From: Heliopora coerulea
Taxonomy: Eukaryota > Cnidaria > Anthozoa > Scleralcyonacea > Helioporidae
Direction: 5' to 3'
NCBI GenBank assembly: GCA_030142905.1
Contig: JASJOG010000002.1
Span: 1,234,501-1,298,500 of the forward strand
Length of the DNA stretch: 64,000 nt
Part shown: positions 5,752 to 62,814 of the stretch, in pieces
Numbering within the stretch: the first letter of the stretch is position 1
Layout: the number at the start of each line of letters is the position of its first letter
Position numbers and translations under genes: made by a program
The notes under the pieces: generated by a model
Told to the model about the DNA's origin: nothing
Database searches by the model: none
Seen by the model: only the letters and a program-made list of their open reading frames with translations

Positions 5752-5802
5752 CAAAGAAATGTTTGGCAAAACGGCTGAAAAGTGTAGAGCTGTAGACTGA
5801 CC

Positions 5803-6348
5803 ATGGGACATGCCCAGAAACACCACTCTGAAATTTCCCCCCAAAAATATGGTTCGGACGGAATGGAGAAAATATGCCTGAACGTTGGAGGACAGAAACA
5901 CGAGACGTACCTTAGTACGGTGGGAAACCTACCGGACACACGTCTATACTGGATTATCGAAAGCGTCGTAAAATCACCCGACTATGACCCAGAGACGACG
6001 GAATTATTCTTCGATAGGCACCCGGCCGTTTTCGCACAGGTTTTGAACTATTACCGCACGGGCAAGCTGCATTGCCCGACCGACGTGTGCGGACCATTAT
6101 TCGAACAGGAACTTAACTACTGGGGCATCGACGAGAAAGACATGGAGCCATGTTGTTGGGCGAACTACACTCAGCATCGGGACGCTGAGCACAATTTAAA
6201 AAACGTCCTTTATGACTCGCCTTCCGAAGACCCCATTGTACCTAGCTCTTCTTCCGACGACCCATCAGAAGCAGTACATTTATGGCGAAAGATTCAACCA
6301 CAGGTTTGGGCAATACTCGATGAATGCCGCTCGTCGAGTCGAGCTAAG
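5803..6348 (+). CDS. Voltage-gated K+ channel (Shaw/Kv3-like), exon 1: N-terminus and T1 domain
   Basis: This exon codes residues 1-182 of a Kv-family subunit. Residues 21-125 form a BTB/T1 tetramerisation domain opening with [12 protein letters not shown] and including [13 protein letters not shown]. The zinc signature HX5CX20CC is exact (His90, Cys96, Cys117, Cys118); this marks the non-Shaker classes. The surrounding [12 protein letters not shown] and [13 protein letters not shown] stretches are closest to Shaw/Kv3 (KCNC). The start is the ATG in a strong GACCATGG context; a second in-frame Met at residue 21 sits at the domain boundary. The exon ends at an AAG/GTGAGA donor in phase 0. The frame beyond it runs into a stop, as expected for an intron. 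T1 sets which subunits co-assemble, so partners should be other Kv3-type subunits. Confidence 0.92.
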
Positions 6349-9300
6349 GTGAGAAAAAAATTCTTTACACGATGGTCTAACGCAAACTCGATTGATAATT
6401 TATGGGATCTCATCCTGGGTATTTGTGGTGTAAATCTACCTTTATTAGTATTAATAGAATAGGCACTTGCAGTTAGACTTTTCTCATCAATGGTCAAATT
6501 GTCTCTTTGTTTGCGGCTTCAGAATAATCGACGTTTGAACCGTCTAGGATTTAGCAGAAAATGCTACTAGTTTTTCGATATGTTAAAGTGTTTGACGTGA
6601 ACTACCATTTATAATTAAAGGTGCTCTGGTAGTTTAGTTAAACCCATGTGTGATCGTGTGCAACCTCTATACACTGGTGACCAAACGTGCATCTGCATAC
6701 CGTTGTACTGACAAAAAGATCTCGACAATTGTCGGTCAGAATTTTGAGATGATTGACTTAGATAACGTCGACCAATTTATTGTAAAGTTGTTTATATAAA
6801 TATTCCATATGATGTCATGAAAGTTTATATGCATTCTAAGCTTAGGACTTAAAACAAAGTTCAAAATTTCAAGACGAAATAGAGAAAACCAGAAAAAACA
6901 GGAACAGACAACATAAAGCACTATGTATTTTGTTTATGAACGTTGGCACCTTTGTGTTATGAAAATTATATTAATACAAAGTGCATGATCACTGACAGGT
7001 GTATTGTCGCATCGTTGCTTTGCATTTATTTTGCTTCCTTGTAATTCGCCTTGATCTTGGTAAAATTTGCTTTCTACCTGCCTCAGCCAAATTCTGAGTT
7101 GAGTTGAAACATTCCAAACCTTATGTTTTTCATACGCCTTGACGTAATTGTTTGCTTACGCAACGCTTCGATATTGCAACAGTTAAGTTAGACGACAATC
7201 AGATATGTTTGTTGCCCCTCTTGCCACCGAAATTTGCCCTGAATTTTACGAAAACTATTCTGTTGCAAGAGGAACGGTTTTTAACATTGCCCTGGGTTGC
7301 TCTAATGCTTACGTAGTTTTTGGATATTTTTTTGCGACTGCCGTGATCTTGCATGCGTCTTAGCCATGGGTGGTTGCGAACGAGTGTCAAGTACTCGGGT
7401 AACGTCTTATGCATCGTTAACAGCGCTATTACCCAGTCTACAGAAGGATTGCACTACAATTGGGAAGTTATAGGGGAATATTGCCTTAACAGTTAGTCAC
7501 CCCAACTGGAATTACGCTAAAAACGGTCTTGTATACTGATGCATCAGTCCATGAATAAACGTGTACTTGACGACGTTCCATTTCTTTAACAAACAAATTT
7601 TTTATGCAATACGTTGCCGTACACCTGCTGTATTGACATCCCATTGGTTGATGAATAGGGGGGACGATGCATTACATTTAGCTTAGTCACAAAACTAAAG
7701 AAGGAAGATTTCCGTTGTCGATGATTAAGAAGCGAAAGACCTTACTAGGCCTGCTTTTGTACTCGCAATTGACAGGTGATTTGTCGGAGGGGATTGTTTA
7801 GGACATCACATTGACTTAGCCTCGCGTTCACCACAGAAGTAAAACCTGAAATAACCACGTGACTATGACTCTTGCCGTATTTACCGTTTGCCTTTCAACA
7901 TTTTGGGCATTTTAATGATTTCAATGACATCATTCCCATAATTATTTCCGACTATTTCCGAAGAGTTGATTCAGGAAACTTCTACAAAATTACTAGTGTT
8001 ATACAAGATCAAGCAAAAGTGTTCGTCAGTTACAATTATGATAAGATGGTTCAATTCGAGTGATGTGTCTTGATGGTAAAGTACGTGGACTTTAACTCTA
8101 TAGCGACCGATTATTGTTGAGCTCTTTTTGGTCAATCCACTAGGATTGCGATTCTGCGTGATATCTTCTTTGAGAACCGAGAGAAGCGTCACACACGAAA
8201 AGAAACTGGAGTATGCTTCAAGTATATACCAAAAAGTCACGCATCCACAATCCAAGAGTGCACGTCCAAGTGGACCTGTGTAGGTGGGACCATGTAGGAA
8301 TATTGCCCTGGGTAAACTTACCGTGATACTGTGTCACTAGGGAAGTAGGGGAGAGGAATAGAACAGGGGCAAAACTAGCCCTTTTTCGTTGGGGAGTGTA
8401 GGGTAGAATTGACCTGATAAAATCTATAATGCCCTGCAGCAACGTAGGTAAAATTGACCGAAATGTGTATATGGAAGCCTACCTCAGTCTGGATGCATTT
8501 GAAATAAATTTCTACTGTCTGTTATGGGATGGCACAGTGGCAAAACAGAACAGTTAAAAATAAAGAAAAATTAGCAAGATAACGAAAACAATTGTTAAAT
8601 TGAATTTACGTAGCTACAGAATAACACGTGCACATGTACCGCTGCACAACCACTGCGTGTATAATGTACAGAATTCTTGATGTCACTGAATTCAGAACTA
8701 TTTTTCTGGAGTCTGTACATAAATACGTCAATTTAATCATCCTTTTTATTGCCAATTTTATAAATTTTAATTTACTCAACTTTGTGCAGTTGCGAGCCTG
8801 CGTCTGGGCTGCGCTGCCCTAGTGGCCTGCAAGATCTGGGATTGCCCTGCGAATCGGAGTTTCTAGTATTTTGGGGGGTGTCACACCCCCACACACACCC
8901 TTGAGTTTTGCCCCTGGAACAGAGACGAGAGCTTTTTTGGCTTCCTTGTTTGGTCATTTTTTTCATTGTATTTCACTGTCTCTTGCCAATTGACTGTACC
9001 GTAACAGGTGACTCGCACGTGCAACCTGTACCGTACCATGACGGGGGCTACTGGGACGCGTGATCTTTTTGATCTTTTTTTTCTAGATTGAAAGGTATTT
9101 TGTAAGCTCAACAAAACGTTAAATCAATGTCTCGATTTCTTATCATTAATTGACAATTTGCAGCTGTCAAGACCCGAAAGTGCCTGTTCTATATTTTCAA
9201 TTACATTTTAAGTAATAAAAAACAAAAAGCACAAAACCTTTTATCCCTTAAGAAGTACACTGTATGGTCGTATATTGGAAGTACTGATATACAGTTATTA

Positions 9301-10026
9301 TAATATTAGCCAGGGTAACCGGGCTTCGCCCGGGATTATAGAGAACAAATGAAAAAGTTCCCTTTTCTTTCAAATATGATTTTAGAAACTTGAACGGTTC
9401 CTCACGAAGAAATAATTGTGCACAGAGTACCAGAGATATGTGTAGATAATGTTATTGTTTCTGTACCACGGTTTCTTTTTTTGAGGTATTTTCTGAGGTA
9501 TTGATAGCTAATGTTACTCATCTGGTCATGGTGAGTTCGAATATGTAATTGAATCTTCTATAAGTCTTGTGGTTCTGGAGTTTTAAGGTAACAGACAAAC
9601 GCCGTGACACTCCAAATTTGTATATACAGATGAGGACATTGGATACGTTAGAGAGAGCAGAGCGGACGCCTTCAAAAGAATTCGCTCCGGATGAATTACC
9701 ACCTAGGTACGGCTATTCATGTAAACAATTTTCGCGCAATCTAAAAGATGGATCGTACAGAATTGCGGGAAAATGTAGGTTTTAAAAAGATTGAACTTGG
9801 TAAGGCGAAAGCTCTAACCACCTTTATGCGTAATAACATATTGAACATCTTAAACTATGATTAGAGCTGAATCTAGTAAGTTTGCTGTGCATAGTTGTTG
9901 AATTTACATGTCGCCATCATTTTCTCTGGAACTGTAACTACGATGTAGTGGTGTCGTATCTTAAACTATTGAGCACTTCTTTACTTAACCAAAAGATCTC
10001 AATCCATATGCACATTTTCATTCCAG
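6349..10026 (+). other. Intron of the K+ channel gene
   Basis: About 3.7 kb between the GTGAGA donor and a TTTTCATTCCAG acceptor. It joins phase 0 to phase 0, linking SSSRAK directly to the first residues of S1. No intervening exon is needed. The longer frames inside (for example minus 8218-8442 and plus 9567-9785) have no recognisable content. A GC-rich hairpin with a CCGGGC stem lies at 9319-9333. Confidence 0.75.
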
Positions 10027-11745
10027 ATCTTTTCATTCACGTCCGTCCTGTTTATTCTCGTTTCCGTGGCGATGTTTTGCCTCAACACTGTCCCAGAACT
10101 GGCTACCAGCAGTAAATGGCGCAGTTGGTTCACAGGAGTCGAAACCATTTGCGGCGTCTGGTTTACTTTGGAATTTGTCCTGAGAATCTTATTTTGCCCC
10201 GACAAACGAGCGTTTGCCTGCAGCTGGACCACTTGGATCGACTTTTTTGCCGTCATTCCGTTCTACCTTAGGCTGGTCATAAGCAACCATGGACATGCTA
10301 TAAATGCCTTGCTGGTGATCCGGTTGTTGCGCTTGTTCCGCTTTTTTCGTCTTATATATGGCCTTCAGGTACTGTCTCACACTCTTAAAGCCAGCTCTTA
10401 CGAATTGATCCTCCTGCTTTTTATGCTTTTCATCCCTGTCATCCTCTTTTCGTCCATCGTGTTCTTCATCGAAGATAACTTAAACCATGCCAACACGAAG
10501 TTCCGTTCGATCCCTCACTCATTCTGGTGGTCCCTCATCACCATCACCACCGTTGGCTACGGTGACATGCATCCGGTTTCGTGGCTTGGCAAAGTCGTGG
10601 GCTGTATGTGTGCAATCTGCGGAGTTCTCATCGTCGCTCTTCCGGTCTCTATCATCGGCAGCAACTTCACGCTGTTCTATATGCATGCCCAGGCAAGGCT
10701 TAAATTGCCGAAAAAGAAGAGCAAGATCTTCTTGCAGACATCATCGACGATGTATTCCGAAAGAACTTTGCCCAGGAGGAGAGCTATTAGAAGGAAGACA
10801 TCATCCAGGGCGAGCGATAGCTGTAGCGTCGCGTTCGAGGAACCTCGGAGCTCGTCTTTTCAACAGGCTCCCTTGTTTCACAATGGTATTTCTAATACGA
10901 AGAATGTGGCGTCTAGAAACTCGATTTTTAGTAAAGATGTGGGAAGACTGAGCTCACTGGCTATCAATGCTCAGGGGAAACCCAGGCAGAAAGTATCGAC
11001 TATTTCTGTCAAGATACCAATGTGCAACGTGAATCGGGATCGGCATGGTGGCGACGAACGAGAAGGAAAGGGCGAGGTCTCCCCAGGTATGGCATCATTA
11101 AGTCCAAAGAAGAGGGTTTATTCTTCATTCGATTCTGTGTATTATATAACTCGCCAAAAGTCCAAGTCAGCAGCAGCTGATTCTCTAATAGCAAGCCCTG
11201 GAAATACAGATCAGGTTAGAAGTGACATCACCAACAGCTTCTCGAACGAAGAAAAACGAAACGTTCGATTTTCAGGTCCCAGCAATGTGCCCGAGATGGA
11301 ACCACTTCTCTTGGAAAGAACAGATATGACAATGAAGTCCACGGAAGACGACGACAGTGGTCAAGAGGTTATAGGAACGTCAACAGTTTCTGAACAGCAA
11401 CAATGCGTTGTGGACGAAGAAATGTTTCACGAGAAAGGGGTCTCTCCATGTTCTCAGGACAGTGGAGATTCGGATATCGAACCGAAAATAGATAAAGTTG
11501 AAGAAGATGGAGTAAAACCACCTCTTTCGAGGCGGATGCGACGTCTGCAAAGAAGTACAGCAATCGATTGGATCAAGGGAGCTTCTCTTTTGGAAAGTGT
11601 TAGTGAAACATGCTCAAATTATAACAGAACGCCAAACACAGTAAGAGAGTCAAGCGAAAAATTCAACCACAATGATAAGGCTTGCTTAGAACAATCAGTA
11701 GATAAATTACATTTCAACCCCAGACGAAGGCAGTCAGTTTTTTAA
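10027..11745 (+). CDS. Voltage-gated K+ channel (Shaw/Kv3-like), exon 2: S1-S6, pore and C-terminal tail
   Basis: This exon codes residues 183-754. S1 is about 183-205, S2 217-238, S3 252-268, S4 about 276-298, S5 307-330 and S6 371-393. The selectivity filter TTVGYGD (356-362) is intact, so the pore should be K+-selective. Two features are unusual. S4 has four arginines at three-residue spacing (281, 284, 287, 290); aligned through the following GLQVL, they fall on canonical R3, R4, K5 and R6, while R1 and R2 are Asn and Leu. The S6 hinge is PVS (388-390), not PVP. Both features occur in electrically silent or modulatory Kv subunits. About 350 Ser/Arg-rich residues follow as a cytoplasmic tail with no domain I recognise. 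The S1-S2 loop is short, and no intron interrupts the membrane region. Confidence 0.92.
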   Translation: MFSFTSVLFILVSVAMFCLNTVPELATSSKWRSWFTGVETICGVWFTLEFVLRILFCPDKRAFACSWTTWIDFFAVIPFYLRLVISNHGHAINALLVIRLLRLFRFFRLIYGLQVLSHTLKASSYELILLLFMLFIPVILFSSIVFFIEDNLNHANTKFRSIPHSFWWSLITITTVGYGDMHPVSWLGKVVGCMCAICGVLIVALPVSIIGSNFTLFYMHAQARLKLPKKKSKIFLQTSSTMYSERTLPRRRAIRRKTSSRASDSCSVAFEEPRSSSFQQAPLFHNGISNTKNVASRNSIFSKDVGRLSSLAINAQGKPRQKVSTISVKIPMCNVNRDRHGGDEREGKGEVSPGMASLSPKKRVYSSFDSVYYITRQKSKSAAADSLIASPGNTDQVRSDITNSFSNEEKRNVRFSGPSNVPEMEPLLLERTDMTMKSTEDDDSGQEVIGTSTVSEQQQCVVDEEMFHEKGVSPCSQDSGDSDIEPKIDKVEEDGVKPPLSRRMRRLQRSTAIDWIKGASLLESVSETCSNYNRTPNTVRESSEKFNHNDKACLEQSVDKLHFNPRRRQSVF

Positions 11746-18204: not shown

Positions 18205-19119
18205 TCATCTATCTCTAATATTATTTTCTGCTGCCATATGATCTTTCGGGATGATAGTTCGGCCACCTCGCAACTGGTCACCGGGGATGGAATCTCTTCC
18301 ACCTCGCAACTGGTCACTGAGAATGGTATTTTGTCCAGGACGAAACTGATCGCTAGGAATGATATCTTGTCCGCCATGTAATTGATTGCTGGGAATTTCA
18401 TCCCGTCCACCACGCAGTTGGTCCCCGGGAACGGTATCTCTTCCACCACGGAGCTGATCACTGGGAATAGTATTTCTTCCACCTCGTAATTGATCGTTGG
18501 GAATAGTATCCCTTCCACCACGGAGCTGATCACTAGTTATGGTATCTCTACCACCGCGGAGTTGATCACTGGGGATGGTATCTCTTCCTCCACGTAACTG
18601 GTCGCTAGGAATAGTATCCCTTCCACCACGTAGCTGGTCACTGGTAATGGTATCTCTTTCACCACGAAGCTGATCCATGGTAATTGTATCTCTGCCACCG
18701 CGGAGCTGATCACTGGGAATGGTGTCTCTTCCGCCACGTAACTGGTCGCCAGGAATAGTATCCCTTCCTCCACGCAATTGATTCTTTGGAATAACATTTC
18801 TTCCACCACGTAACTGATCACGAAGAATGACGTCCCTTCCACCTCGGAGCTGGCTGCTGGGAATGGTGTTCCGTCCACCCCGCAACTGGTCTTTGGCAAT
18901 ATTATTTCTTCCTCCACGTAATTGATCATTAGCAATGAAGTCTTGTTTCTCATCTAACTGATCATGAGCGTCTGGAATCGCATTTCTTCCACCCCGTAAT
19001 TGGTCCTTCGAAATCAAATCTCTAACACTGCGTAATTCATACTTAGGAATTTTGTTAAATTTAATTCCATTGGCACACCACAGATACGAGGCCATCGCTA
19101 AAAGAAGGACTGTTTTCAT
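18205..19119 (-). CDS. Secreted multi-copy peptide precursor; putative pQLRGamide neuropeptide preprohormone
   Basis: Intact single-exon frame of 304 residues starting at an ATG in a TAGCCATGA context. Residues 1-18 are a typical signal peptide (MKTVLLLAMASYLWCANG). From residue 40 to 287 it consists of 12-residue units; 17 are perfect QLRGGR, almost always preceded by Asp and followed by Asp or Asn, with spacers such as DTIPSD. Three more units are degenerate (QLRGER, QLHGGQ, QFRPGQ). In known cnidarian precursors such as Antho-RFamide, Gln after an acidic residue becomes pyroglutamate and Gly-Arg marks amidation plus cleavage. Applied here, each unit would yield pGlu-Leu-Arg-Gly-amide. Seeing the units is direct; the mature peptide is inference. 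A structural secreted repeat protein is the main alternative. No cysteine framework is present beyond the signal peptide, which argues against a disulfide-rich toxin. Confidence 0.85.
   Translation of the reverse strand: MKTVLLLAMASYLWCANGIKFNKIPKYELRSVRDLISKDQLRGGRNAIPDAHDQLDEKQDFIANDQLRGGRNNIAKDQLRGGRNTIPSSQLRGGRDVILRDQLRGGRNVIPKNQLRGGRDTIPGDQLRGGRDTIPSDQLRGGRDTITMDQLRGERDTITSDQLRGGRDTIPSDQLRGGRDTIPSDQLRGGRDTITSDQLRGGRDTIPNDQLRGGRNTIPSDQLRGGRDTVPGDQLRGGRDEIPSNQLHGGQDIIPSDQFRPGQNTILSDQLRGGRDSIPGDQLRGGRTIIPKDHMAAENNIRDR
18259..19002 (-). repeat. Coding minisatellite, 36-bp period (about 20 units)
   Basis: The DNA of the precursor repeats with a 36-bp period in phase with the codons. Synonymous positions vary widely (for example Arg and Gly codons differ between units) while Q-L-R-G-G-R is kept, which suggests protein-level selection rather than fresh duplication alone. 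Confidence 0.85.
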
Positions 19120-42024: not shown

Positions 42025-44530
42025 TCACAGTAAATCCCCAGGTAGGAAACCTGCAAAACTAGCATCACTATCATCTGAATCAGACAAATGTTTCTCATGT
42101 AAGTCATTGTCAGTAGTCATGTCCTGATCAATATGGCTATTGCTATCTGCAGACTCCATATCTGATTCAGAGTCTGATACAGCTTCAAGCTCATTACTAG
42201 GGTCAGCTTCATCTTCTGGCAAAGGATTTTGGTAATATTTAACTTTCTTTTTCCTTGCTTTGTACTTCTTCTTTTTTGGTTTGGCCATCTTGCTTTCTGG
42301 CTTTATCACATGTTAACAACAGGTCTGACATTGAATGAACCCAGCAGAGGACCTTCTTCAACAATTCTAAGAATGTTTGTCAAAGGTCCTCACCCAAAAA
42401 ACATCTGCTATCATTCTTTGTTCTTTTGAGTTGAGAAAACATGTGTTCCAGTTTTGCATTGGAAACTGGAACTGAAAACAGGAGTTCAATCAGAATTAAA
42501 ATGTTCTTCCAATTTGATGAGTACGAGCAGTTGAATAGAAGTTTCCATGTCTTCTTGTAGTTAGTTTTACCTGACTGAAGAAAGTTCATTGCATAACTAA
42601 GTAAATCATGCTATTCTTCAAGAATTTCATGAGAAGTAGCACTGGAAGAAAACCCTTGTTTTAAAATTACAGGCTGGAATTTTCATACAAGTTCAGTAAC
42701 CTTATCATCTGCAAATTCAATGCCTTCAGCTTCTGAAATCGACTTCCAGTGTTCAGTGTTTAAGATGCTTGCCACAGCATCTAACTGAATGCTTCTTGCT
42801 CCCTCTAATCTGGCACTGATTGTGGAGTGCACAGATTTGATTAAGGAGTTCTTATCAGTTTTTATATCATCAATGGCTTTCTGAAAATTCCTGGTTGTAA
42901 ACTCAATTCCTTGATAAATGTACAATGAAGGTGTCTTTTTCATATTTCTCAGTAAGTGTTTAACTGATGGAAGATCTTCTAAAGATCTGGACATCACCTT
43001 ATCATGTGACTGCTCAGATTGCTTGAGATTGTGAACTGCTCCAACACAATCAATACCATCCTCTTGAAATGCTTTGGAAGATATTGCAGCTGGATTCAGA
43101 ACATCAATGAACAAGGCAACACACAGTAGCATGTGGCTTGATTTCCACTGGTGCAAGTAACCTTTGATGTTTTCACGACCTTTGAAATTCGTATCATTGG
43201 CCAAACGTTCCAAATGTTGAATGTAAATACCATATTTGTCAAGGACAATTCACAGTGCTGACAACTTGAATGCAATCCATCTTGTACCACCAGCTTGCTT
43301 TGGTTTTAGAGATCCCTCTTCAAATTCAAAAGTATCCTTGAGTAAATCATGCAACAGTTTAAGTTCATGTAGTTTTTTTTGAGATTTGTGGTAGAGTGCA
43401 TATATTTTGATTAGCATGTTGTCAACTTTCTGGAATATGGTGTCATTCAATGCATTTTTGAGGGCTAGTTCTAACTTATGAGCAACACACCATGTATAAA
43501 TTAGCCACGGTGCTTTTTCTTCTAAAAGTACTTTAACTCCATTCTTATTACTACTATTGACCGATGCACCATCAGCTCCAAAGCCTACAAGCTTTGAATA
43601 AAGTTCACTTGGCAAAATACCCAGCGAATGAAAACTTTCTTTGATTGCAGCCTTTATTCCTGGTGCATCTGCTTTTTTGACATCTTTCAAGTAAATAAAG
43701 GATAATTTCACTTCAACTTCTTCACTCTCGGAATGAGGATCAAAATATAGTACGTAGACAACTTCTTTCTCAGTGGTGGAACTGTCTGTACTCCCATCTG
43801 TTAATACGCTATAGAATTTTGCTTTCGTAAGATCTTCTTTTAGCTGTGAAGCTATATATTCTCCATGATCATCAATGAACTCTCCACACTGTTTTCGAGT
43901 AGTATACGCATCCTACATCCACGCTATGGTGTTTCTCCAATTCAACTAAATCTTCATAAATAGTAAAAGGAAGTTCCTTTTTGGCAACAAAGTATGCAAT
44001 TTCGAACTTTTTAATTGCCTGTTCCTGTCGAACTTCACTCAATTTAGCAACATTATCTCTCAGAGTTGTTGACCTGCGTCTGGTTGAAATTACTCAATCA
44101 CATGTAGATGATTAACACACTCACCCTTGGGTTTCAAGTCATTGATGTACAATCTGTACGCGTGTTGGTGGCATTTCGTTACAGAATGGTCTGTCGCGTT
44201 TGACAAGCGAAGGTTGCGACTTTCTTTTATCCACGCGTCAGAGAAATCCCGATTGTGTTGTATTTGCTTTTGAAATTTGGTGCAGATCAAGCACTTCATT
44301 TGAATAACTTGTCCTTTTTTGTTGTCTTCGTGCTTTAACCATACGATTGCATTGGTTTTTGCCAGATCTTCGTTAATCCATTTCGTAACAGTGCTCGATT
44401 TTAACATTCGGCTTGACTTCCTTGGCTCTTGTTGTTGTAGTAAAGCTGATTCATCAAAAGTGATCGAGTCTTTGTTGCTAACACTATTTGTGTCAGCAGA
44501 CATAAAAAATGAAGTTATTTTCTTCGACAT
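42025..44530 (-). pseudogene. Disrupted hAT transposase (zinc-finger plus DDE plus hATC)
   Basis: Recognisable parts in order on the minus strand: an N-terminal zinc-finger region (44530-44090, KCLICTKF with downstream His residues); the catalytic start LTDGSTDSS (about 43790); LVGFGADGASVNS and WCVAHKLELALK (43250-43711); TRWIA; a helical insertion (42683-43213); the hATC dimerisation motif LLFSVPVSNAKLEHMFSQLK (about 42480); and a Lys-rich then acidic C-terminal tail (42025-42309). I can locate a frameshift near 44090, one near 43920, in-frame stops near 43250 and 42683, and a frame change after 42380. It resembles the ZNF862-like group of hAT proteins. It cannot produce an active enzyme. 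Confidence 0.88.
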
Positions 44531-45444
44531 GTTGTATATAATTTAACGCTAGAGTGATTACAAACAATCGATATTCAAGACAGTCGCACTTCGCCATTTT
44601 TCGCAAAACCACTCATGGCAACTCGCGCGCATTCACTAATTTAATATACAAATGAAGAGCGATTGATTCAAGACAAATATTAATAGTTGGTTTTGTAGTG
44701 AAACTAGAAGTCAATGTCACCAAAAACTGTTCCGGACAAAGTGACAGACATCGTCAAATTTGTGACTGTCAAAACTCTATAAATGACAAATTTGTACCGG
44801 ACAATATCCGTGACCGGACGCTAATATCCAGGCATGCTTACATGTATTACATCATTAGTGAGAGTTTTGCATTTCAACATTAAGATGACCCAGTTTTGCA
44901 AGCTATGTTTTGCTGTTACGAGACACTGTAAAAGTTGTATTTGGTATTTTGATGCCAAACACAGATGTGAACCCATGGCTAAACATTTAGTGTGGTTTTT
45001 ATTGGGTGAGAAGGAACTTACTTATGGAAACTTCTGGACTTTTCTAGTTAGATTAGTTTTTCCTCTCAAAGGTTAACCTGTTAATGCCCAGTGTCCCACA
45101 TATACAGTAGGAAACCTGTAGAACAAAAGGACAAAAAAAATAGGCAAAGGGAAAAACAAACAGAGAACAATAAATAATATATAAAAGTTGGACTTTAAAG
45201 GGTTAAGTAACTGTGTTTTTGGCTTGCAAAGTTAAACTTCATGATGAATGCACTGAAACTGCATTCAATTCGTGTTGATTGCATGAAAACTAAAGATGGG
45301 TTTAAGTTACGTTTTTGATTCAAAGAGACCAAGTGACATAAAAATGATACAGTCTGCCAGGAAAAAAAAAAGACTAAAACCTCATCCTTTCATTTTGACA
45401 ACAAATTTTGGAAACTTATTTTACCTTATAAGAGCCATAGGCAC

Positions 45445-52489: not shown

Positions 52490-54440
52490 GCAGAGACAAC
52501 AAAAGATGAGATCAGGAGTAGGGTTGCCTCCACCGTACAATCGGCCTCTATACGTGACACCAACTTGACGGCAGTCGAAAAACAAGCACTCAAACGACTA
52601 AAACATGACGAAAACATTGTTATACTACCAGCAGACAAAGGACGCGTTACTGTTGTTATGGACAAGACCGATTACTACGACAAAATGGACGAACTAGTTA
52701 ACGACAAACAGACCTACGAACTACTTAAACGAGACCCTGCACCATCACTTCAACGAAAACTTAACAACAAAATTTTCTCAATGAGAAAAACTAACACGAT
52801 CACTCAACAAACTTACTATCGACTCAGGTGTTCGGTCCCGCGATCACCAAAGCTGTACGGACTACCGAAACTCCACAAGCCACAAATACCCATGCGACCT
52901 ATAGTTTCGTTCTGTGGGTCGCCTACTTACGAACTTTCCAAATACTTAACAACCATACTGCAACCACTAACCAACAAGTCACAACATAGACTACAATCGA
53001 CTGAAACCATCAACAATCTCAAAACAGTACAAATACCACACAACCACAAGCTAGCGTCTTTTGACGTGAAATCACTGTTTACAAGTATTCCGCTTCAACT
53101 GGCGCTAGAATGCACCAAAACTGCCATCAACGAATTTACTGACGCACTTCCTTTACCTACAGGGGACATCGTGGAACTACTGGAACTTTGCCTCACATCA
53201 ACTTACTTTCAATACAACGGTAAACACTACAAACAGTTACATGGCACAGCAATGGGCTCACCCGTTTCTGTTGTGGTTGCTGAAATTGTAATGCAATCCA
53301 TAGAGGAACGAGCTCTTGCACCTTACAAACACACGTTACCTTTTTGGTTTCGTTACGTTGACGACACGATTACTGCACTACCCGAAGACGAGATTGACGA
53401 GTTTCACAAACACATTAACGAACAGAACAGTCACAAACAATTTACCAAAGAGATTGAAGAACACGGAGCTATTCCGTTCCTAGACTGTTTGGTAAGTCGT
53501 GACAATAACAAACTACAGACCACTGTCTACAGGAAACCAACGCATACTGACAGACTACTGGACCAATCATCGTACAATCCAACCTCACACAAAGCTACCA
53601 CCATCAAAGCATTGACGAGACGTGCACAACTCATTTGTAACTCACCCGACGCTCTACGCCAAGAAAATGACTATTTACAATGCGTTTTCCACAAAAACAA
53701 CTATAACTCTGACTTCATCAAACTTAACACTTACAAAGACAATGAACGCGACGAAAACAACAGTCCGACAACAACTACAGCAACGATACCCTACATAAAA
53801 GGTACGTCTGACAAGGTGCAGTTTACAAAATTAATTGCTCCGACTGCCAAGCCACTTATATAGGTGACACTAGCAGAAACTTAAATATACGACTCACAGA
53901 ACACAAACGAGCGACAAAAAACGGAGACAAAACCAACCACATTGCCGAACACCACCGACAAACCAAACACAACATTGACTGGGAATCGGCAAAATGCATT
54001 ACGTCCAGCACCAACTACAAACAGCGACTCACACTAGAAAGCTGGTATACGAACTTAGAACAAAATCCATTAAACCGATCACAACAATTACCGGGACCTT
54101 ACAAACGACTAATTCACAAAGTCAAACGTGCGAGCAGCCAATAGACTTACACTTCGACAAACTGATAATTAACGCCTACACAACCACACCCATTGTTTCT
54201 CACCAACTATCACACCTCCATGACTAATACGACCGCCCACTTATCACGCACGAGCCAGATACAAATACAGGCGAACCTGACATTTACTCTCCTTTTGACT
54301 CTGAAGATGACCGCCGCTAAGGCTGTCGAAACGTCAGTCACTTCAACCAACAGTCTTTCTCAAGACTCCGCTAACCTGGACGATCAACTTCCTCAAACAT
54401 GTCACGATTCTCCCAGGTTCAAACCATTTACTTTAAGCGT
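52490..54440 (+). mobile_element. Penelope-like retroelement, 5'-truncated, in cystinosin intron 5
   Basis: Contains an almost complete reverse transcriptase and a GIY-YIG endonuclease, followed by a tail with CTGAAGA, a stem and TCGAAACGTC. It ends about 120 bp before the cystinosin micro-exon. The 5' boundary is unclear; just upstream lies a short LINE-like tail. Confidence 0.85.
52565..54144 (+). pseudogene. Penelope-like RT and GIY-YIG polyprotein, one frameshift
   Basis: Frame 1 (52565-53863; homology starts a little earlier with an RSRVASTV block) has IVILPADKGRVTVVMDK, RPIVS, the catalytic SFDVKSLFTSIP (Asp167 counted from 52565), GTAMGSPVS, FRYVDDT (Asp266/267) and FLDCLV, TVYRKPTHTDR. 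All RT catalytic residues are intact. At about 53815 the frame shifts by one base, consistent with a single deletion. Frame 2 then encodes VYKINCSDCQATYIGDTSRN and LNIRLTEHK, a GIY-YIG nuclease with its Cys pair, to a stop at 54144. With one visible lesion it is the youngest-looking retroelement here. Confidence 0.88.
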
Positions 54441-61787: not shown

Positions 61788-62067
61788 TTACCAAATGCTA
61801 ACGACCCAACGGCTTAGCAAGATCAGAGCACAACTAGCTACTACTGCTGTAATTCTTGCTGGCAGGTAAGCACGGGAACTTATGAGTTCTTCATGGATTT
61901 TTTTCACTTGCTGAAGTGTTTCGGTTTTTGATTCCGAGTTATTCACAACATGCGTAGCCTTCCTGCACTTTTCGTTCAAAGGAATTTGCGCACTGATCCT
62001 TTCTCTAGCGTGCTCCTCCGTATAGCCATTTCTTTTGACCAGTCTCTGGAACTGGATATCGGGATCA
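61788..62067 (-). CDS. Dephospho-CoA kinase domain-containing protein (DCAKD-like), last exon
   Basis: The minus-strand exon starts after a TTTGAAG acceptor (phase 2) and codes the last 92 residues. DPDIQFQRLVKRNGYTEEHA and RERISAQIPLNEKC match the CDRDTQLxRLMxRN...A-xARIxAQLPL region of the kinase. THVVNNSESKTETLQQVKKI matches its C-terminal HVxDNSG motif. It ends with LPARITAVVASCALILLS, the hydrophobic C-terminal segment typical of the animal DCAKD group rather than of COASY, which suggests membrane anchoring. The P-loop and substrate-binding parts lie in upstream exons beyond 64000; none was found between 62068 and the window end. The family phosphorylates dephospho-CoA in CoA synthesis; activity of DCAKD itself is less well established. 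Confidence 0.85.
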
Positions 62068-62814
62068 CTTCAAACGAAAGCAAAACGTAGACTTAACGAT
62101 GATTAAATGAACAGGTGTCCTGGTAAATTTGTCTCCCCAAATTTAGCCCCGCGCTACATATGTTCTAGGAAATTTCTCAGGAAATGTCCCTCTCTTCGAA
62201 AATTTGGTCCCCTTCTCACGTGTGTGCACAGTACGCCCAGACACCAAGAAGCCATTTCCGAGCTTCTGAAACTTGCTGAAAGCATTTAGGTGTTAAAGTT
62301 GAATGGATTGTGTGGTATTGAAGATGCAGTAAAGTCGAAAATTTACCATTTGAACATTTAGTGTTGTTCATAACATATATCTTGGGTTTTTCAAAAATTC
62401 GCTTTTATTGGGATTTTGCTTCGTCTTATACTTTTGTGTGGTATATTTGCAGGAAGTGTACAAGGATCACTTCTGCTATGCTAACACTCTTGTTTGTATT
62501 AAAAACGGATAGGGAACTCCCAAAATGTTTGGATAGAAAATACGGACGTTTCGAGTGAATGTTCTTTATTAGATTTATTGGTCATCTTTGAGGTTAACTT
62601 TTTTCCAATACCGAATATATCTCCAAGTTTTTATATCACTTTGCGCTTCACTCCGTAGAAGGGCCTTCGGTCGAAATCTCAATATTTCAAGTTTTCGGCT
62701 GCTAATTCCCGTAACTCTTTGGACGCAGCAAAATTTAAATAAAGCTGCAGAGGTCACCCACGTTGTAGCCAATCACAGTTGGAATACATTTGATCCGATC
62801 CGTTCTGAGATCAT
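62068..62814. other. Intron of the DCAKD-like gene
   Basis: No further exon recognised. At about 62545-62700 the TTTCGAGTGAA and AGAAGGGCCTTCGGTCGAAA pieces form a diverged version of the terminal hairpin family. Confidence 0.5.

Follow-up and report, generated by a model that had tools for sequence, protein, structure and literature searches.

A predicted preprohormone gene for the octocoral neuropeptide pQLRGamide at one locus in Heliopora coerulea

An open reading frame on the reverse strand of the window, by which we mean the whole 64,000-nucleotide stretch of DNA analysed here, very probably encodes, at one locus, the Heliopora coerulea preprohormone of pQLRGamide, an octocoral neuropeptide (Table 1). 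The precursor's anatomy, the codon-level constraint on its repeats and a published octocoral peptide family support the preprohormone reading made in the original prediction. The pQLRGamide family is already known and published for soft corals and relatives: it was described in 2019 as Octocorallia-specific neuropeptide family #3, in a transcriptome survey that had H. coerulea among its seven octocoral species (Koch & Grimmelikhuijzen, PMC6909153). The original prediction was thus right about the peptide, and its suggestion that the peptide may define its own family is overtaken by that 2019 publication.

Precursor anatomy and repeat array

The N terminus of the protein, MKTVLLLAMASYLWCANG, contains its most hydrophobic windows. 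The four highest hydropathy values (1.65 to 2.01) belong to windows starting at residues 3-6, and the maximum among windows starting beyond residue 30 is -0.12. The signal peptide that had been claimed, and that characterizes cnidarian neuropeptide preprohormones, is borne out as a signal-peptide-like N terminus, the call being made from hydropathy and the -3/-1 residue rule, applied by eye, only. At the other end of the gene, the closest AATAAA or ATTAAA lies 817 bases beyond the stop, which counts against the preprohormone reading.

Table 1 Features of the predicted pQLRGamide precursor gene (positions in the window)
Feature	Position	Strand	Description
pQLRGamide preprohormone CDS	18205..19119	-	Single open frame, ATG (19119) to stop (18205), 304 aa plus stop
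Signal peptide, residues 1-18	19066..19119	-	Predicted cut after Ala-Asn-Gly; -3/-1 rule by eye and hydropathy
Array of 20 QLRGGR-like units (17 exact)	18259..19002	-	12-residue period, spacer typically D-T-I-P-S-D; from translation
Variant unit QLRGER	18655..18672	-	Amidation Gly lost; from translation
Two variant units, QLHGGQ (18367-18384) and QFRPGQ (18331-18348)	18331..18384	-	Arg cleavage site lost in both; from translation
Apparently decayed unit QLDEKQ	18943..18960	-	12 residues ahead of the second exact unit; read from translation

The array is strikingly regular. Exactly 12 residues separate successive units in 18 of the 19 inter-unit steps, and the first step, of 26 residues, has QLDEKQ inside it; the 20 units of 12 residues and the 17 perfect QLRGGR copies that had been predicted were therefore recovered. 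So was the near-constant Asp before Gln, present in 17 of 20 units overall and in 15 of the 17 exact ones, with Asn or Ser elsewhere. The claim that Gly-Arg closes each unit stands for the 17 perfect units and fails for QLRGER, which lacks the amidation Gly, and for the two units that end in Gln rather than Arg. With 17 units ending in GGR, the protein has the layout selected by the published screen, which asks for three or more repeats that end in GR, GKR or GRR. Shuffling the mature part of the frame 2000 times yielded QLRGGR in two shuffles, once in each, and never more than once, so the array is not a product of chance.

Codon by codon, pairwise comparison of the 20 units, with the core defined as the six codons of the motif, showed that, in the coding frame, synonymous divergence is high for both core (pS 0.68) and spacer (pS 0.71), while amino-acid change is slight for the core (pN/pS 0.13) and moderate for the spacer (pN/pS 0.38). 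In the two other frames of this strand, pN/pS came to 0.82-2.71; because the units are not independent, these comparisons are descriptive and stand in place of a statistical test. Heavy synonymous change with low amino-acid change in the core makes the repeats look old, and the peptide is the part that is kept.

Locus number and surroundings

A genome-wide scan with a degenerate DNA pattern for QLRGGR, which also admitted some Phe and Ser codons, returned 55 matches: the 17 exact units of the gene and 38 scattered elsewhere, as against 77 genome matches for the reversed-pattern control. At the 13 outside loci that were read, no second QLRGG[RK] occurs nearby in one open frame, and the coordinates of the remaining outside matches reveal no cluster. 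The gene is probably single-copy, since the motif clusters only at this locus.

Wider searches yielded no relative of the open reading frame. The full protein found none at E<=10 among 8000 scored candidates of the protein collection, and a core-only query retrieved one irrelevant bacterial match (E 2.0) among 6778. Five Pfam matches, all under the curated cut-offs (best E 0.0015), and two insignificant matches to solved structures (E 0.48 and 0.62) were rejected; NCBIfam gave zero matches. Of nine further matches from a protein search of the same genome, the seven that have a locus (L002-L008) proved to be tandem repeats of low complexity and were set aside. L009 and L017, read in their own frames, are simple repeats.

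The window holds several other features. On the forward strand, two exons (5788-6459 and 9973-11742) encode a Kv3/Shaw-like voltage-gated potassium channel with BTB_2 and Ion_trans domains. Thirteen proteins (P0002-P0014, the one with a name being from Dendronephthya) match nearly the whole of the second exon with its tail at 48-53%; among the best 120 of 161 matches, Dendronephthya gigantea is the best named one (48% over 97% of the query, eight ranking higher), and a Nematostella protein matches at 59% over 42% of the query. An RVT_1 reverse transcriptase frame followed by a GIY-YIG-like stretch in another frame (52490-54141, forward strand) resembles, by eye, a Penelope-like retroelement. 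Judged by eye, three frames on the reverse strand (42686-44542) resemble a broken transposase, with one below-cut-off match of the C17orf113 zinc-finger type and no Pfam match for two of the three. Also on the reverse strand, 61791-62069 is an exon with a match to the final part of dephospho-CoA kinase (CoaE). Degenerate telomere-like or related arrays (TAACCC, GTTAGG, AATCCTAACTTG, GTTAGGATTAGG) occur inside the contig at 17941-18093, 27760-27872, 40301-40376 and 56250-56297, the first of them just beyond the stop of the pQLRGamide gene.

Related peptides and precursors

Family #3 is defined by multiple copies of pQLRGamide or a very similar peptide in an octocoral host. The 17 exact QLRGGR units predict, from sequence, that same peptide, and the prediction of a pQLRGamide product at high copy number is thereby supported (PMC6909153). 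The host is likewise an octocoral, in whose genome we also found a precursor of GPRRamide, a peptide that PMC6909153 calls Octocorallia-specific; the named protein that best matches the second channel exon likewise comes from an octocoral, Dendronephthya gigantea. The likeness to family #3 is one of predicted peptides.

Among other cnidarian peptides, the GPRGamide or X1PRX2amide group shares the Arg-Gly-amide end, encoded as RGGR, but has Pro and Arg as its second and third residues and no pGlu, whereas all 17 exact units have Leu in second place; PMC6909153 keeps pQLRGamide apart, as a family specific to Octocorallia. The original prediction's comparison with Nematostella RGamides was off target. 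The main text of a hexacoral survey (PMC7523074) has GPRGamide-type peptides and no 'QLR', and the main texts of the Nematostella receptor (PMC11087051) and peptidomics (PMC6756747) papers have peptides of the same type and no 'LRG'. Closer in form is pQLLRGamide of the hydrozoan Turritopsis sp., with pGlu and an LRGamide end, but it is one Leu longer and is present in four copies beside nine of RPRGamide in one incomplete precursor (PMC8638164).

Two further precursors were located in the H. coerulea genome. The Antho-RFamide (pQGRFamide) precursor, on contig C101, has a signal-like start and, in one open frame, 12 QGRFG[RK] copies, 8 of them with Asp or Glu before Gln. It follows the same logic of acidic residue, Gln, peptide and Gly-Arg as the pQLRGamide precursor, but its peptide is another one and its copies are irregularly spaced, 9 to 29 residues apart. 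The GPRRamide precursor (L025 1213-2166; G000:C7, match at 633351-633530) carries 12 GPRRGR copies, as against the 4 given for H. coerulea in PMC6909153, where the peptide is family #5; an incomplete transcript would explain the difference. An RPFLamide precursor, also reported for this species (PMC6909153), was not found in our search of the genome with a guessed spacer, in which 8 of 14 matches were read in frame and motif-scanned.

The GPRRamide precursor resembles that of pQLRGamide in its regular short unit, its single-Arg sites and the GRD-x-I start of its spacer (GRDEIS versus GRDTIPSD). It differs in being Pro-protected rather than pGlu-protected, in its 10-residue unit and in its N terminus. 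After Gly-Arg, the spacer reads D-T-I-P-S-D in the pQLRGamide precursor and mostly D-E-I-S in the other; PMC6909153 had remarked on a DEIT preceding GPRRamide. Unfiltered BLAST of the pQLRGamide precursor gave E 1.4e-6 against both the GPRRamide and the Antho-RFamide precursors; with low-complexity filtering and composition correction, Antho-RFamide scored E 3.6e-5 and GPRRamide E 0.12, which is not significant. Repeat-region scores were 98 against GPRRamide (mean 48.8 and maximum 105 over 300 shuffles) and 93 against Antho-RFamide (shuffle mean 39.4, maximum 69), to be read knowing that these shuffles destroy the repeat period and that the compared proteins have the G-R-acidic processing pattern in common. 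N-terminal scores fell within the shuffle range for both, that against GPRRamide being 25 (mean 20.3, maximum 40). On these numbers the Antho-RFamide precursor appears nearer than the GPRRamide one, for which the GRD-x-I spacer is the single feature suggesting a link. Acidic spacers are common in neuropeptide precursors. Given this, together with the unaligned N termini and the filtered E of 0.12, we consider it unlikely that the octocoral pQLRGamide and GPRRamide precursors are paralogues that kept a selected GRD-x-I spacer and switched the peptide between Pro and pGlu protection. If they were, the spacer could perhaps act as a signal for processing or be a companion peptide.

Alternative readings and predicted processing

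A secreted, repetitive protein of a structural kind or of the skeletal matrix could carry a 12-residue repeat that merely looks prohormone-like; the protein is secreted-looking and tandemly repeated, its spacer is also constrained (pN/pS 0.38) and its host builds a skeleton. Such a protein would hardly be expected to show a complete processing signature (D-Q...G-R) in 15 of the 17 exact units, to be most conserved in the peptide core, to contain a peptide identical to published octocoral pQLRGamide (PMC6909153) and to be laid out like the Antho-RFamide precursor of the same genome, and we regard this explanation as very improbable. Still less credible is the idea that the gene is a prohormone copy in decay or without expression. 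The three variant units and the apparently decayed one point that way, but the frame is intact, constraint on the core is strong and the genome holds no other motif cluster that might be a working copy.

A true precursor might also release products that are not neuronal, for example endocrine, epithelial or cnidocyte peptides. The authors of PMC6909153 state that they are not really sure if the novel families in their paper localise to neurons; against this, the Nematostella precursor genes of HIRamide, PRGamide and VRHamide are reported to be neuron-exclusive (PMC6756747), and we judge non-neuronal products to be quite improbable. Among the titles and abstract openings listed in our literature searches, with subscription journals thinly covered, none announces peptide-level detection of pQLRGamide.

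For a neuropeptide precursor, maturation would involve pGlu formation, removal of Arg and amidation on Gly, the enzyme steps of cnidarian precursor processing. By analogy with that processing, the signal peptide would be removed, and a cut after Asp, occasionally Asn or Ser, would expose Gln, which would cyclise to pGlu. A further cut after Arg, followed by trimming of that residue, would leave pQLRGG, whose last Gly would be converted to the amide by PAM, yielding up to 17 copies of pGlu-Leu-Arg-Gly-NH2. No more than 17 active copies are expected, since QLRGER would go unamidated and neither QLHGGQ nor QFRPGQ would be cut at Arg. Cleavage of cnidarian precursors at acidic residues and at basic sites, and their amide ends, have been described in papers including PMC6909153. 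A search for the PAM domain PF03712 returned 0 matches in this genome and likewise 0 in all 14 control genomes. The mature peptide would be released from peptidergic cells and would probably act on GPCRs.

A published octocoral peptide family is thereby placed on a genome, as one locus with its full coding sequence in one frame and up to 17 copies of the predicted peptide. It represents no new kind of system; what the locus offers is a straightforward route to probes, antibodies and receptor tests in a reef builder.
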